Part shown: in pieces, positions 49,111 to 56,240 of the stretch | How positions within the stretch are numbered: the first letter of the stretch is position 1 | Layout: the number at the start of each line of letters is the position of its first letter | Source of the DNA: Macrocystis pyrifera | Taxonomy: Eukaryota; Sar; Phaeophyceae; Laminariales; Laminariaceae | DNA: 64,000 bases | Assembly: GCA_031763025.1 (NCBI GenBank) | Contig: JASSKH010000020.1 | Location: 8,434,667 to 8,498,666 of the forward strand | Direction: 5' to 3' | The notes under the pieces: generated by a model | What the model saw: the letters and a program-made list of their open reading frames with translations, nothing else | Told to the model about the DNA's origin: nothing | Database searches by the model: none | Made by a program: the position numbers and the translations under genes

Positions 49111-50429
49111 CTGGTATTGTCTTTCAAATCTTAAACAGTGCGGCCCCGGATGGCAGAGTTCTTCCCGTTCCCCCCCCGGTCCTTCCCATCCGCTCCATAC
49201 CCACCGTTTGGACCAACGGTTTAGATCGGGGTTGTCGATAGCTCCTTCCCCCTTCGTGATTATTGACGACCCATATCTTATCATTGTCCTTGCCTTCTAT
49301 TTGGCCGGACCCGCCATTTGAATACACGGTTGAGTTAACGCTGTCGCCAGCTCTCTCCCTTGCGTTAGCTCCTGGCTATTCATCTCCCCCCGATCTCCGC
49401 CACCAGTACGAGTCGCTTAAGTCGTACACCTTTCCATCGAATACCTTGCTTCGACCTCTGTCAGATGTCCATGAACTCCCTCTTGACTCTGGTTCTTATC
49501 GGGTGTACCTTGAGCGCCTCTTCCCTGGAAGCCGCTTTCCTTTCTCCCATTGTCGGCGTCCCGGCCGAGTGAGTCTTGCAACCCGCTGCATGATATAGTT
49601 CTCACAGAGCGTGGAATACGTCCAGGTGCAGTGGGGTAAAGCTCTCCCTCGCCCGCTCCTAGTTCAGTCAGTTAGAGTCCGCACCGTCCTGGTGCTTCCC
49701 CTTGTACTCCCAGGACCACGAGTCTGCAGTATCCCACGAGACCCTGCGGCCACTCGGCGTATACAGCGGCGCTGCGGTTGTGGACGTCTCGGCGGTCCCC
49801 AAGCCGGGTGCACGAACTCGTCTTGAAACGCGTGGCGCAGACCTGCTTGGCGTTCATGAAAGGGCTTCATATCCACAGCGGACATCAGCCTTTTTCTGAT
49901 GCTGCAACCATTCAGGTTGACTGCGTAGCTGAGACCCGAGTGCCACAAAGCGCTTACTTGCTACGGCCCGTCCAATAATTTTGTGCTAGCTTCGAGCAAG
50001 CACTTTCTCTCTGCCATGCGCTTGCTGCCTCCTTAAGCACCACGTGGTCGCCTACCTTGACTTGCCCCACCGTTGAAGCTAGGCCTACGCTGTCGTTTTG
50101 GCCTTGTTTAGTTCGGTCTTTGGCGGCTTGTCTCTACTCTAAAACATTGCGTGTCTCTCAGACGGCTTACTGCTCGTCCAACACGAAGGCATCCAGTCCT
50201 CCTCTGCACTCCCCTCCATGGACTGCAGGCGTGATAGAGTCTAGCTGTGTGTGAGCATCTCGACCGAACATTAAGCGGAATGGGATCAGGTTCGACCTCA
50301 GGCTGGAGTCGAGGGTGACACGCTGGATCCAACAAGCGCGGAATATGCATCTGTCCCACGACCAAAGCCAAGCCTTGCAGAGCCCCGACAGTACCTCCTG
50401 GAGCCACGCGCATGCTCTTTCAACTGCTC
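49111..50429 (-). pseudogene. Gypsy pol, region after integrase (decayed)
   Basis: Open stretches lie on the minus strand (for example 49,948 to 49,664), but I cannot place a domain such as a chromodomain with confidence. It fills the space between integrase and the 3' LTR in the right order for a Ty3/gypsy element. Confidence 0.45.
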
Positions 50430-51213
50430 CCTACGCTCGGGGGTGGTTGGCAGGACCTTCGCCTGTCCACACCCTTAAGAATTGACACAAGTGTCTCGCC
50501 ACGTGCGCGGTGAACTCCCCCCGTGTGTCACTCCGAATCGATAGCGGTGCGCCAAAAGTTAAGAGGAGTTCCAGCAGCTTACGACTCACCCCGCTGCTTC
50601 CTTTGACGGTAGCGAGCAAGCGAACACGACCTTGCCGACTCGATCCACCACGACTAGAATAATATGCCCTGCCAACCATTTCTGATTAAAGGCTTGGATA
50701 TCCACCTCAAGGACTCCCCACGGCCATAGGATCCTGGAAGGCGTCATGGCCACTCGCTGGCTACTCGCCCTTTCCCTTCTCCTGCACCCGCACGAAAGCA
50801 AATACTCGTGTTCATCCCCGACAAGCGTATGCCGGCTGTACTTTCCCCGAACTAGCAGAGTTGTACGCGCCACGGCCAAACGTACTGTGGGCCAGAGCCA
50901 ACACCCCTGGCACGATGGCTCTGGGTATGGCCAACTTTGTCTCCTCCTATCTTCGGACGTGCCACAGGATACCTTCATCGTCCAACAGATACGATCGGTC
51001 CTCGCCTGAGCCGCGCTTGGCTAAGATAAGTCTTAGCACTCCTTCTCTGCTCTGGGCTTCCGCCAACCGTCGTGCGTTCTGAAGCGTGGCGGCTATCTGG
51101 GCCAGTATGGGCGACGAGGGATTTGCAGGCTCCACATCCCTTGCTGCGTTTCTCTTGTGGTTACTAGTAGTATCCTTAGGCTCAGCATCGGGCGAGGGCT
51201 GAGGTAGCCGCAC
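50430..51213 (-). pseudogene. Gypsy integrase remnant
   Basis: Integrase joins element DNA to the host chromosome. The minus strand shows YLLDDEGILWHVRR (about 50,990-50,950), a zinc-binding-like SCGCRRRE (about 50,790), PWGVLEVDIQ with the first catalytic Asp near 50,702, and an ILVVVDRVGKVVF strand. FGAPLSIRSDTRGEF holds the second Asp (about 50,530), and a HPRA segment stands just before the expected Glu. Frame changes between about 50,585 and 50,680 and again near 50,440 break it. The order zinc site, D, D, (E) is as expected for Ty3/gypsy. Confidence 0.8.
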
Positions 51214-51614
51214 CGTCCCAAGGGTTCGTGTTGGGGGTCGAGAGGATGACGTTGCTACCGCTCTGGTGGCCGTCGTGATATCGCTCAGCCCAGTGAGTCC
51301 TCCGGGACTCTGGCCATCTTCGCTTTAGTCTCTGACCCGCCCTCCGTCCGCTTCCAGAGGCCCCGGGAGTGGAAGAATTTTCTCACCCGACCTGCCCTCC
51401 ACCCCGACCGAAGTGAGAGCTACCCCTGCAACTGTTATGAAGTTCCCTGCTGCCTGCACGTCCATCACGTCTGCACCGAGTTCCGTATCGGGAATCCCTT
51501 CCAGCACCGGTCCCTCCGGCCTCCGGTATACCTGGCGACTCGACCTATCGTCCGAGTGCGTCGTGGATATCCTCTCCTGGTGGTTCAGGGCGCGGCAGTC
51601 TTCATAGTGCATGC
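51214..51614 (-). pseudogene. Gypsy RNase H-integrase linker, decayed
   Basis: Minus-strand open stretch of about 95 residues (51,612 to 51,325) without a recognisable domain. Its place between RNase H and integrase suggests it is the pol linker. Confidence 0.5.
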
Positions 51615-51703
51615 GGGAGCTGGTGGCGGACGCCTGGTCACCATTGTAGCACCATGCCGTACTCGTTCAGGCGCAGAGACCATCGGTGTAGCTTCGCGGA
51701 GAA
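51615..51703 (-). pseudogene. Gypsy RNase H, C-terminal piece
   Basis: The minus strand reads KLHRWSLRLNEYGMVLQW and then PGVRHQLPHALSRL, the usual end of a gypsy RNase H. The 5' part of the domain lies beyond the 2.47-kb insertion, at 54,190-54,480. Confidence 0.8.
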
Positions 51704-51711
51704 TGTTTTTC
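51704..51711. other. Target-site duplication, left (TGTTTTTC)
   Basis: The same 8 bases stand at 54,182-54,189. Confidence 0.8.
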
Positions 51712-52254
51712 GAAATATGGTGAAAGGGGGGTATACCTCCCCGGGTTGTTTTTTAAACCGTATGGAGGTGTAGGCAAAACACGGCCGCGGGAAGCTTTCC
51801 CACGTGCCCCAACCGGCTCCGAATTCAATTCTGACGTACTGGTAAGGTGCCCGCAGCCCATGCCGAGCACCCCCGCCTTTTTTTTATTTAGTCGGGTACG
51901 TTGTTGGGACTAACGGCATCGCCGCGCGGGAGGGGTTCCAAGAATTCCCCTTTTTGACCAAATGTTGTGGTATATGCCCCCGCAACTCTGCATAAATGTA
52001 TGTAGTACCCCCCCGTGACCATCGTCTTTCCCCTCTTTGACCGAGTCACTACCCCGCGATGACCACTTACTTATCACAGCCTCAGAAATAGATATAAACA
52101 CTTGTATACGTCACCCTATGCAGCAGCCCGAACAGCCCAAGGGTGGAACATCCAGCAGTTGCGAACAGTCCCCGTCGAAATTTGCGGAAAACCCACACGG
52201 GGCAACAAATAATACGTAAAATCAAATATTTATATTATACAAAAACATGCCAAT

Positions 52255-52582
52255 CTTTGCAACGTACCAAATTCAAATCGGAAGAAAAAAAAGGGGTCGA
52301 TGGGTAGGCGATGATGGGAGTGGACCGTGTGTACCAGTTCTATAATGAGACATTGACTGCTCTCAGCAGCCAGCAACAGACACGCTCAAAGTCGCTGGGT
52401 ACCATGTGCTGTTCGCTGCTGCCCGGTGTGCGAGTTCGCTGTGTTGCCTGGTTTCTGGTCTGTTGCTGTCTGCTGGGAGCAGTCAGTGTCTCGTTACAGA
52501 CCTGGTGCACACGACCCACTCCCATCATCACCCACGCATCGAACCCCTTTTTTCCTTCCGACTTTATTTGTACGTTACAAAG
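52255..52582. mobile_element. Foldback element inside the left arm, 328 bp
   Basis: Arms of about 130 bases (52,255-52,385 and 52,455-52,582) are inverted copies, both with AACGTAC, GGGGT(T)CGATG and GATGATGGGAGTGG. The ends read CTTTGCAACG and CGTTACAAAG. The right arm of the host element is continuous at the matching place, which shows that the foldback is a later insertion. Confidence 0.85.
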
Positions 52583-52734
52583 ATTAGAGTGTCTGCGCAC
52601 AAATAGTTTGTTTATCAAGGATTTCCATGGGAAAGGTACTCATAATCGAAAGCCTTCCGGCATGCGCATAATCGGAGACGAAAACTCCCTAAATATTGGA
52701 TTCTTACGTATGTTAGAAAAAAAAAGCACTTGCA

Positions 52735-53340
52735 GCCGAACAGAAATTGTGCAAGCAGAGGTAGTACCTACCTGCAGCACCAGTAGCACCTGCAGCAAGC
52801 TGCAGAAGTAGTGTGCAGCAGCAAGTACCAACAGGCAGAAGTGCGATCTATCTTGTGCTCCTCGACACTCGCTGTGCAAGCAATGCCGCCACAACGAGGA
52901 GATCGTCCTCTTTCTTCTTCGTTGTCCATTCTGCCCGAAAAGAGATCGTGGCGGCGAAGATCAGGGGCGTGGCGGCAAGAGTGCACGCGCTTGCAGCAGC
53001 AGCAACAGCAGCAGCAGCCGCAAGCAGCAGTAGCGCCTGCAACAGCGCTTGCAGCAGCGCTTGTTTGAGGCAGCTCTCTTGCTCGCAGCAGAGCTTGCTT
53101 GTGCAGCAGCGCTCTCTTGCAGCAGCGTTTTTATTTGCAGCAGCGTCTACTCACCACAGTGCTTGGTTGCCGCAGCGCTTGCGGCAACAGCACTGCAGCA
53201 AGCAGCACACTTACTTGCAGCAGCAGCAGCAACAACAACAACAACAACAACACAAAACATGCATTCATAGTAGCAGTACTCGTAGTCCATGACGTGCAGC
53301 AGCAGCTGCAGCAGCAGGCAGCAGATGCGTGCAGCATCAG
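52735..53340. repeat. GCA/CAG-rich low-complexity core
   Basis: GCAGCAGC and CAACAACAAC runs dominate (53,217-53,258 is densest). Open frames here are rich in Gln, Ala, Leu or Ser and are composition artefacts. Confidence 0.85.
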
Positions 53341-54181
53341 CGGCAGCACTTCATCTCGCAAAACCCCGCCGGTAGCAGACATGTTCCGAGATCCGAGGCC
53401 ATTCTCGAGGCGAGCTTGGCCGATTCAAAGCGTCCGGAGAGTTTTCGGCGGACAGAATGCAGGGATCGAATGTCATCTTACACAAATTTGGCTCTACAGT
53501 AGTATATTATGCTATCCAAAAATGCGTAACTTCGTCATTTTTGTGCAAATTTGATCAGGCTTTTTGATCAGTCGGTCGGGAACGGGGGAGCAGATAATAA
53601 CCATACCTGGTACTTCGAAATATTTTTTTATTTTGCGCAGACACTCTATTGGTATGTTTTGTACAAAATAAATATTTGTTTTGCATAGCATCTGTTGCCC
53701 CGTGTGTTTTTTCCGCAAATTTCGATGGAGACTACTCGCAACTGCTGGATTTTCCGCCCCTGGGCTGTTTGGGCTGCTGTATAGGGTAACGTGTACAAGT
53801 GGTTGTATCTGTCTCTGGGGCTGTGATAAGTGGTCATCGCAGGGTAGTCACTCAGTCTAATGGGGGAAAGATGATAGTCACGCGGGGGTACTACATAAAT
53901 TGGGTAGAGTTGCGGGGGTATATCGCGCAACACTTGTTCAATGGGGGGATTTTTTTTACCCCTCCCGCGCGACGGTGCCGTTAGCCCCAACGACGTGCTC
54001 GACAAAAAAACAAAGAGGCGAGCGTGTTCAGAATGAGCTGCCGGCGCTTTGCCAGTGCGTCAAAATTGAATTCGGAGCCAGTTGGGGCACGTGGGAGCGC
54101 CTCCCGCGGGCGTGTTTTGCCTATACCTCCCTGTGGCTAGAAGAAAACCGGGGGGTATACCCCCCTTTCGCCATTTCCCTT

Positions 54182-54189
54182 TGTTTTTC
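54182..54189. other. Target-site duplication, right (TGTTTTTC)
   Basis: Matches 51,704-51,711. Confidence 0.8.
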
Positions 54190-54480
54190 AACGTCCAAAT
54201 CAGCGCCGAACAGCCGGTGATAAGGGTGAACCTCCTACCCTACATACATATATGGTCTGAAGCGGGTTACTGCCCACAACACCACCATCACCTCTAGTTT
54301 GTTCCGTGGGTGACCTCTTCGCGTCGGTTCTTCGAGCCGGTCTGCGACCACTCGTGGCTCGCGAATGCTGACACATGTTCCGAGTTGTCGGTACCTTGGA
54401 TAAGAGCCACTCCTGCTCCTAGCTCGCTGAAATCCGTGTGCGGCTGAAGTGGGGTGTTCCAGTCTGTCATGGTCAAGATC
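54190..54480 (-). pseudogene. Gypsy RNase H, N-terminal piece
   Basis: The minus strand reads HTDFSELGAGVALIQ, the usual first catalytic-Asp block of gypsy RNase H, then SAFASHEWS. An ITGCSALIWTLKN segment (where TDHSAL is usual) stands directly before the insertion point. A stop and frame changes lie between, so the domain is broken even without the insertion. Confidence 0.78.
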
Positions 54481-54544
54481 GGGGGGATGTCAAAACCTGA
54501 ATCAGCCCTGCCAGCGCCGTATCTTGTCCCTCACCCCATGGTAC

Positions 54545-55470
54545 CTTCATTGTTCGAGCCCGTTTCGACGAAAATATCTTGTCTCTCGGAGTAGATCTGA
54601 GATAGGCGATACCTGGGCGCTATATCGGGGAACGAGCTTCCTCAGATAGCCAGTCAATCCCAACAAGGCCCTCACCTCCTCCACTGTATCAGCCTTGGCA
54701 AGCTGGGCGGCGGCGTCGATCTTAGACTGCGACGAGCGCACTCCCAGCCTGTCCACGACCACGCCCACGCCCACAAACTCTTGCGGGAGGCACTACCACC
54801 AGAATTTTGAGAGAAGTTCACCGACAAGCCCGCAGCCGATACATGTAGCTCATCTAGCACTTGCCTCACAAGGACCAGGTGTCCCTTTACCTAGTTAGTG
54901 TAGATAATGATGATGATGTCGTCGAGCCATTTTTGGAGTCCCTTGCCTTTCAAAGGGCCGAGGGTTCCACCAAAAGCCCGCTGGTATAATATATCAGTCC
55001 GAATCCGCATCGGTTGAGCTCCCACAATGTCCCGTAGGCGTCTCGCAACGCGGTCTTGTGCTTGTCTTCCTCTGCGATCTCTAGTTGCGTGAAGCCCGAC
55101 GATAGGTCTATCGACGTGAAGCAGCCTGCCCCCTTCACGCCGTCGAGGATGATTTGGATGTCTCCGACGCCTCCACTGTTCGATTTAACAACGTGTTGAG
55201 ATCTCGATAGTTCTGGCAGACCCTCGCTATCCCACCCTTCTTGCGAACGACCAAACAGTTAGCCACCCATGTCGATGACGACCCGCGGATGGCCCCTGCG
55301 TTGAACTGCTTCACAAATTCACTCTGGATCATAGTTTCTTGCTCTGGTGAGTATCGTCGTTGTCTGGCCGCGTCTGGCATGATATCTTCTTTGATCAGGG
55401 GTAATCGAAGCTTGGCCCCCGTGCACGCCGGCACAATCTTGGGGTTGACTGTAAATAGTCCCCATTCCCA
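54545..55470 (-). pseudogene. Gypsy reverse transcriptase
   Basis: The minus strand shows, in order, AGAIRGSSSTWVANCLVVRK (about 55,300), RVCQNYRDLN (about 55,225), FTSIDLSSGFTQLEIAEEDK with the first catalytic Asp (about 55,110), RCGFGL (about 55,015), WLDD followed by an Ile run (54,918-54,929) and VRALLGLTGYLRKLVPRYS (about 54,660). These are the standard Ty3/gypsy RT blocks. WLDD replaces the usual YLDD or YVDD, and an ATC repeat has added Ile residues after it. Frame changes lie near 55,160, 55,000 and 54,890. Confidence 0.88.
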
Positions 55471-55538
55471 GAAAACCCGTGGCATCTCGAGCAAGTCCGG
55501 CTCGTACCTCTCGCCTAGCTGTTTCATGTCGGCTTCTG

Positions 55539-56240
55539 CTAGGTCGACTCCCGCTGGTTCTCTGACCCTTTCCCCCCCTCCCGTCTGCCTTTCCGCTCCC
55601 CTTCCATCAACCTCCGAAACTGGGGTCCCTCCTCCGGGCCGCTCCAGCAGTAGCCGCATCCTCTCCTTGTCGCTTGCGTTGGTTGCGCGTGTACCTTCGC
55701 TACCACGAGAAATTTCGGCACGGCTAGTGGCGTGTTCGTCCGATTGATGACTGTACACTGAAGGAGGTTACCAGGGTACCACCACTGTACTGCCCTCGCT
55801 ACCCCCAGCTCAGCTACGATCTCCATGTCGAATGGCCTTGTCGAAACCACCAGCACTAGTTGTCTGTCCTTCGGTTGAGGACCCTTCACAAAGGTCTCCG
55901 TCTGCATACTGACTAAACCCCCTACCTCTGCCTTCTTTGCCATGCGCAAGTTCCACTGCAAGCTACCGTCGTCCTCGCACGCTATTTCATCTTTCTTTGG
56001 AACTGCCGCAGGCACTGCCAGTCCCTCGGGTTCCCCTACCGTTGGAGCCTGCACAACAGCACACAAACGGTCCCATGTTTTCTCCACCGTTTACATTGCT
56101 GCAGTGCAGATCCCCTGGGTCTTCGTCCGTCTCTCTTGCCAGTCGGCCGCCGTGCCGTCTCGTTGTACTGAATTTTCTGACCTCAGTGGCATCCACGGCG
56201 ACTCCGGCGCTGGCTTGAAGCCTCCCCTTCTGCGAAATTA
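55539..56240 (-). pseudogene. Gypsy pol segment between protease and RT
   Basis: A minus-strand frame of 182 residues runs from 56,087 and includes DMEIVAELGVARAVQWWYPG, VINRTNTPLAVP and KFLVVAKVHA. This looks like the region after the protease in which host-like beta strands precede the RT. A frame change near 55,700 follows. Confidence 0.6.

Follow-up and report, generated by a model that had tools for sequence, protein, structure and literature searches.

The window, a stretch of 64,000 nucleotides of the giant kelp Macrocystis pyrifera (C201:8,434,667-8,498,666), contains a nest of three levels: a decayed gypsy-type retrotransposon, a foldback element and a 1,062-bp element. The genome searched for relatives was the M. 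pyrifera assembly (537,376,219 bases, 223 contigs). The features, in window coordinates, are as follows.

50,170-51,711, minus strand: decayed gypsy-type pol, 3' part (remaining RNase H and beyond), left flank, with the KLHRWSLRLNEYG block and genomic relatives of 51,300-51,711
51,704-51,711: left copy of the probable 8-bp target-site duplication TGTTTTTC, which at family level does not pass its control
51,712-54,181: foldback (long terminal inverted repeat, TIR) element, 2,470 bp as present, about 1,405 bp minus the 1,062-bp insert and one ATT
51,712-52,381, plus strand: left arm of the foldback element, outer 541 bp (51,712-52,252) and inner 129 bp
52,382-52,457: central loop, 76 bp, from the inverted repeat and the arm alignment
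52,458-52,585, plus strand: right arm, inner 128 bp (second half of a 328-bp piece formerly called a foldback)
52,583-52,585: left copy of the 3-bp target-site duplication ATT of the 1,062-bp element
52,586-53,647, plus strand: third-level insertion of 1,062 bp, CAG-rich, apparently non-coding, an independent genomic repeat
52,586-52,599, plus strand: 14-bp TIR AGAGTGTCTGCGCA of the 1,062-bp element
53,634-53,647, minus strand: 14-bp TIR, other end of the 1,062-bp element
53,648-53,650: right copy of the duplication ATT
53,648-54,181, plus strand: right arm of the foldback element, outer part
54,182-54,189: right copy of the probable duplication TGTTTTTC, with the same proviso at family level
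54,182-55,767, minus strand: decayed gypsy-type pol, reverse transcriptase to first part of RNase H, right flank, with Pfam matches and genomic relatives of 54,182-54,800

The decayed gypsy-type pol and its empty sites

Gypsy-type reading blocks are present on the minus strand on both sides of the foldback element, in differing frames. Ten stop-free minus-strand pieces of these flanks, five per side, were each scanned separately against Pfam. Two pieces, both in the right flank, gave matches: one to RT_RNaseH_2 (E 6.7e-7; 29.7 bits, just under the cut-off of 29.8) and to RT_RNaseH (E 0.0029), the other a weak match to RVT_1 (E 0.0074). The eight other pieces, including all five of the left flank, have no Pfam match; on this side integrase-like words can be read by eye downstream of RNase H, in sequence where Pfam gives no match. 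The relation between the two sides can be followed in the genomic relative L042. Here the stretch before the insertion site is RT_RNaseH (E 1.4e-23, over the cut-off) and the stretch after it starts SQNLSAKLHRWSLRLNEYD, in a piece with no Pfam match, while the KLHRWSLRLNEYG block of the window also has its counterpart. Since the RT_RNaseH and SQNLSAKLHRWSLRLNEYD stretches adjoin the site in L042, the two blocks flanking the foldback element belong to one pol reading, in agreement with the earlier note, which had placed a gypsy RNase H reading on both sides.

The order of reverse transcriptase and RNase H on one strand, and the RT_RNaseH match of L042, are shared with Ty3/gypsy LTR retrotransposons, from which the window copy differs in being broken in many places. 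Reverse transcriptase and RNase H of the LTR-retrotransposon type are indicated by the RT_RNaseH_2 match just under the cut-off in the window and by the RT_RNaseH match over it in L042. The matched Pfam families are not exclusive to Ty3/gypsy, and the window pol is presumably Ty3/gypsy rather than of another LTR group, an assignment that we take from the general features of the group.

A search with the left flank (51,300-51,711) gave 11 matches: the window itself, eight near-full-length relatives (72-77% identity) and two short matches of 62 and 87 bp, which were not fetched. The right flank (54,182-54,800) matches the same eight relatives at 75-78%. In all eight gypsy relatives fetched (L038-L045, of ten found) the two flanks lie 3-17 bp apart, and foldback sequence is absent from the 2 kb read at each. 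Because the flanks are adjacent in 8/8 relatives, with no foldback sequence, gypsy copies without the foldback element exist. Such empty sites, which had been suggested as a check, are the main proof that the foldback element was inserted, rather than the 8-bp duplication.

The foldback element and its relatives

Both copies of TGTTTTTC, reported earlier at 51,704 and 54,182, are present, identical at 8/8 positions and placed exactly at the ends of the foldback element. The chance level is low for this locus, 8-mers at random positions of the 1-kb flanks agreeing in 13 of 986,049 pairs. In the family as a whole, the flanks of ten two-ended copies agree with at most one mismatch in 4/10 cases vs 18/90 for mismatched pairings, and a further two-ended copy, L055, has no clear duplication by eye. 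TGTTTTTC is a likely target-site duplication of the window copy. Some of its bases may predate the foldback insertion, as two short T-runs are present at this site in the gypsy relatives.

With the 1,062-bp element removed, the two arms can be paired in 655 ungapped columns, 83.5% of them identical, which leaves the 76-bp loop. An element of 2,470 bp with long inverted arms had been described before, and this stands; the arms measure about 660 bp and not the ~550 bp then given. Aligned with the limits first proposed (51,712-52,606 against the reverse complement of 53,632-54,181), they show the same 83.5% over ungapped columns, but matching them along their full length requires a gap of ~340 bp. 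Beyond this gap, the final 15 bases that match are TAGAGTGTCTGCGCA, the end of the 1,062-bp element, and the former arm limits 52,606 and 53,632 fall at the ends of that element.

The 328-bp piece (52,253-52,580), previously considered an extra element present in one arm, is the centre, or apex, of the foldback element and not a later insertion. It consists of the 76-bp loop, the inner 129 bp of the left arm and 123 bp of the right arm, and includes an inverted repeat of 112 bp (84%, spacer 76 bp) at 52,270-52,569. Once the 1,062-bp element is set aside, its halves are the inner parts of the two arms. Among the best 40 of 62 candidates scored in the genome, two copies of this core reach 90% of its length or more, that of the window and that of L009, and both are inside arms. 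The next longest match (87%, C222:8,440,586-8,440,847) has an end motif of the family (C222:8,441,333) ~0.5 kb away, and the other matches are shorter pieces.

Searching the genome with a 2,486-bp query, of which the best 40 of 1,012 candidates were scored, divides the query into three repeat sets with common limits: 14-664 (left arm and half of the 328-bp piece), ~882-1946, and 1945-2477 (right arm). Sister copies often match the left arm only as far as 52,367. L009 (C212:2,091,429-2,092,835) matches query 14-889 and then 1945-2477 with a 10-bp overlap, the middle piece being absent. This unsplit sister of 1.4 kb is an inverted repeat across its entire length (76%) and folds into a single hairpin of -557.6 kcal/mol (DNA parameters; no shuffle control above 1,000 bases). 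Other relatives have the same arms and longer centres, with lengths of 2.1 kb (five places on C196), 3.0 kb (L033) and ~8.2 kb (L032 with L047). The other copies that the earlier note suggested looking for are therefore numerous: the end motif ATGGTCAAAGGGGGGTATACCCCC has 61 genomic matches at no more than 2 mismatches (reversed control, 0) and arm matches are spread over many contigs. Inverted arms forming most of the element around a short unique centre, together with dispersed copies that share their ends, correspond to a foldback-type element.

Several of these relatives are unusual in their own right. The five ~2.1 kb relatives on C196 (L010/L029, L012/L030, L013/L034, L014/L035 and L016/L036, at ~7.02-7.45 Mb) have nearly the same outer flank and occur in both orientations within 0.44 Mb, which looks like one insertion that was duplicated rather than five insertions. 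In L021 (C219:9,340,700-9,344,700) the two flanks of the foldback copy are inverted repeats of each other (~24 bp, 1 mismatch), as if the copy had been placed at the centre of another palindrome. Direct and inverted repeats abound inside the 8.2-kb relative (C205:10,753,947-10,762,171), which has the same arms.

Searches that covered part of the possible frames and end places gave no transposase for either DNA element. For the foldback family, ten frames of L032 (104-233 aa, of 23 listed) scanned against Pfam contained no transposase domain and gave one weak zinc-knuckle and one weak phospholipase match, both below the cut-off. Mutator elements (MULEs) make target duplications of 8-11 bp, and it is possible, although the case falls somewhat short of probable, that the kelp foldback is a member of this superfamily comparable to the MULE foldback Tm1 and owes its movement to a MULE transposase of the kelp; such an affiliation is compatible with an order of three insertions. 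The long arms, the foldback form and the 8-bp duplication fit Mutator, and the MULE transposase domain is matched at no fewer than 94 places in the genome. The duplication is perfect (8/8) in the window copy and not clearly above its control in the ten-copy family. Against Mutator, the 8-kb relative has no transposase domain in the ten frames scanned, a similar form is known from the P superfamily, and the MULE matches lie far off: the closest approach is 144.7 kb for the 61 end motifs and 110.9 kb for the 27 arm places compared (of 45 rows; introns not modelled). Twelve of the MULE matches share an E value of 4.6e-7 and an open frame of 208 aa; they look like a uniform, perhaps young family without visible link to the foldback ends.

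Tm1, a Mutator/Foldback family of root-knot nematodes, is described as having composite inverted repeats that vary in length, 9-bp target duplications, members with a hairpin motif or of MITE-like form, and some members that code for a MULE-type transposase (PMC3169594). The kelp foldback shares with it the variable composite repeats, the hairpin and MITE-like members and the long target duplication. It differs in the transposase, none having been found in the searches described above, and in a duplication of 8 bp that is clear only in the window copy; the hosts are unrelated. The P superfamily offers a similar form. Galileo of Drosophila is reported to have long TIRs of variable structure, some of them lengthened through tandem repeats or through other transposons inserted in them, and 7-8-bp duplications (PMC4168063), so that it resembles the kelp foldback in both respects. 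A P-type transposase was not seen in the ten frames of L032 scanned against Pfam. The foldback form and the 8-bp duplication fit Mutator-type (Tm1) as well as P-type (Galileo) elements, and the family is filed in neither. Close to its foldback centre, L015 (C218:15,173,000-15,176,500) carries tandem duplications of 173-176 bp (90% and 97%), which recall the way in which Galileo TIRs are reported to be extended by tandem repeats (PMC4168063).

It is very improbable that the palindrome is instead an immobile inverted duplication formed in place and later broken by the 1,062-bp element. The arms within one copy are 73-87% identical (nine copies), about as different from each other as arms are between copies, which would suit such an origin, as would the weakness of the 8-bp duplication at family level. 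Duplication in place would have copied local gypsy sequence, and the arms are not gypsy; moreover, these arms, outer end included, recur at many unlinked places and are missing from 8/8 fetched gypsy relatives. Formation in place is rejected on these grounds, the gypsy empty sites and the dispersed end motifs and arms, in favour of a mobile foldback element.

The 1,062-bp element within the right arm

The CAG-rich interval had been taken for the middle of the long-TIR element. It is a true third insertion, inside the right arm of the foldback element, with its own ends, a 3-bp duplication, many other copies and empty sister arms. Twenty places outside the window (among the best 40 of the 1,012 candidates) match this element alone and with the same limits, from query 876-885 to 1944-1954. 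Copies start AGAGTGTCTGCGCA and end TGCGCAGACACTCT, with small variation, and the terminal 15-mer TAGAGTGTCTGCGCA has 497 exact genomic copies (reversed control, 0). Among 100 of these 497 end places, 29 of 34 neighbouring convergent pairs are spaced 1,038-1,179 bp, the other five being 1,946, 13,455, 96,354, 426,231 and 3,235,640 bp apart. These spacings yielded no autonomous partner of the element. The first 7 kb of the 13.5-kb pair (L054) hold a piece of the element of ~330 bp followed by other sequence, and contain 7 open frames of at least 150 aa.

Sixteen copies were examined for target duplications, and three that are without an end (L003, L025 and L027) were left out. A perfect 3-bp duplication is present in 11 of the remaining 13 (ATT 6, AAT 4, ACT 1); L002 and the first copy of L022 have no matching 3-bp flank. 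PIF/Harbinger elements duplicate TWA, to which these 11 perfect duplications do not conform.

In the window the element is flanked by AAAGATT and ATTGG, and the empty sister arm of L009 reads AAAGATTGG. The two sides are likewise adjacent in 12 foldback sister arms, where they overlap by 2-3 bp; this overlap is the 3-bp duplication, so these arms represent the empty site of the 1,062-bp element. The 12 arms come from 24 loci, which gave 20 rows, eight of which repeat a place from an overlapping locus (L020/L037, L021, L048 and L049 gave no row). They are partly dependent and count as seven elements or groups, because five are near-identical C196 duplicates and two belong to one element (L033). 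Its own TIRs, a target duplication and empty sites identify the 1,062-bp element as an independent transposable element.

These results leave almost no room for the scheme in which gypsy first received a long-TIR element, made of ~550-bp arms around a unique CAG-rich centre, whose left arm was afterwards the target of a separate 328-bp foldback. Although the 328-bp piece is itself an inverted repeat and the right arm beside the CAG-rich interval seems to be without it, the CAG-rich interval repeats independently and has ends and a duplication of its own, sister arms run uninterrupted from outer to inner part with its site empty, L009 carries the 328 bp at its centre without this interval, and the full-length core was not found outside arms among the best 40 of 62 candidates, so that the 328-bp foldback is rejected as the third insertion.

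The third insertion, then, is the 1,062-bp element, which resembles short-TIR non-autonomous (MITE-like) transposons in having a 14-bp TIR, a short fixed duplication, hundreds of ends, copies that are in some cases 99% alike and no coding family found; it is longer than a classical MITE. Its two long plus-strand frames have no Pfam match, and the element looks non-autonomous on this reading of its sequence. Superfamily signatures include CACTA ends and TA or TWA targets, and neither the A-N-T duplication nor the end AGAGTGTCTGCGCA fits these. Twelve other copies share 84-86% identity with the window copy, and several of the twelve are 99% identical to one another; the family thus probably moved recently, the window copy being old or of another lineage.

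Order of the insertions and the two transposon families

The ends, the repeat families and the empty sites of both insertions are directly visible in the genome, and the sequence of insertions is almost certainly gypsy-type retrotransposon, foldback element, 1,062-bp element. The earlier note had likewise put gypsy first and the long-TIR element second, as the eight empty relatives bear out, and had placed a foldback third, a position that falls to the 1,062-bp element.

A gypsy-type retrotransposon entered the locus and decayed afterwards. Its RNase H region then received a non-autonomous DNA transposon of ~1.4 kb, in essence a single palindrome with two arms of ~660 bp each and a 76-bp loop between them, which probably made the 8-bp target duplication. 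This transposon was probably mobilised in trans by a transposase recognising the end common to its relatives, about AAGGGAAATGGTCAAAGGGGGGTATACCCCC. Finally, an unrelated non-autonomous transposon, the 1,062-bp element with its 14-bp ends and 3-bp A-N-T duplication, entered the right arm 128 bp from the loop, presumably also mobilised in trans. For both DNA elements we infer the transposases and the exact mechanism. By splitting the palindrome unequally, the last insertion imitates a small foldback seated in one arm. This is a trap of some generality: a later insertion that splits a palindromic transposon can cause the last steps of a nest to be misread.

The nest is ordinary in kind. Its value lies in the description of two DNA-transposon families of the giant kelp genome, defined by empty sites and without superfamily assignment. 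The published giant kelp assembly is reported to have a transposable element annotation made with RepeatModeler (PMC10498591), and either family may therefore already be in its library under an unknown label. Among the literature matches listed, titles and abstract openings revealed no publication on either family in kelp. It seems unlikely that both elements represent superfamilies so far undescribed, at least in brown algae. Should this be so, one would be a foldback family with AAGGGAAATGGTCAAAGGGGGGTATACCCCC-like ends and without a tie to the many MULE transposase matches of the genome, and the second a family whose ends number in the hundreds, with a 3-bp A-N-T target duplication and some copies 99% alike, probably recently mobile.

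With its near-identical copies, the 1,062-bp family could mark recent transposition in kelp. Copies or ends of this element abut or lie less than 300 bp apart at L022, L023, C127:3,290,744-3,290,918 and C185:93,535-93,574, a clustering that may hint at target preference or rearrangement.
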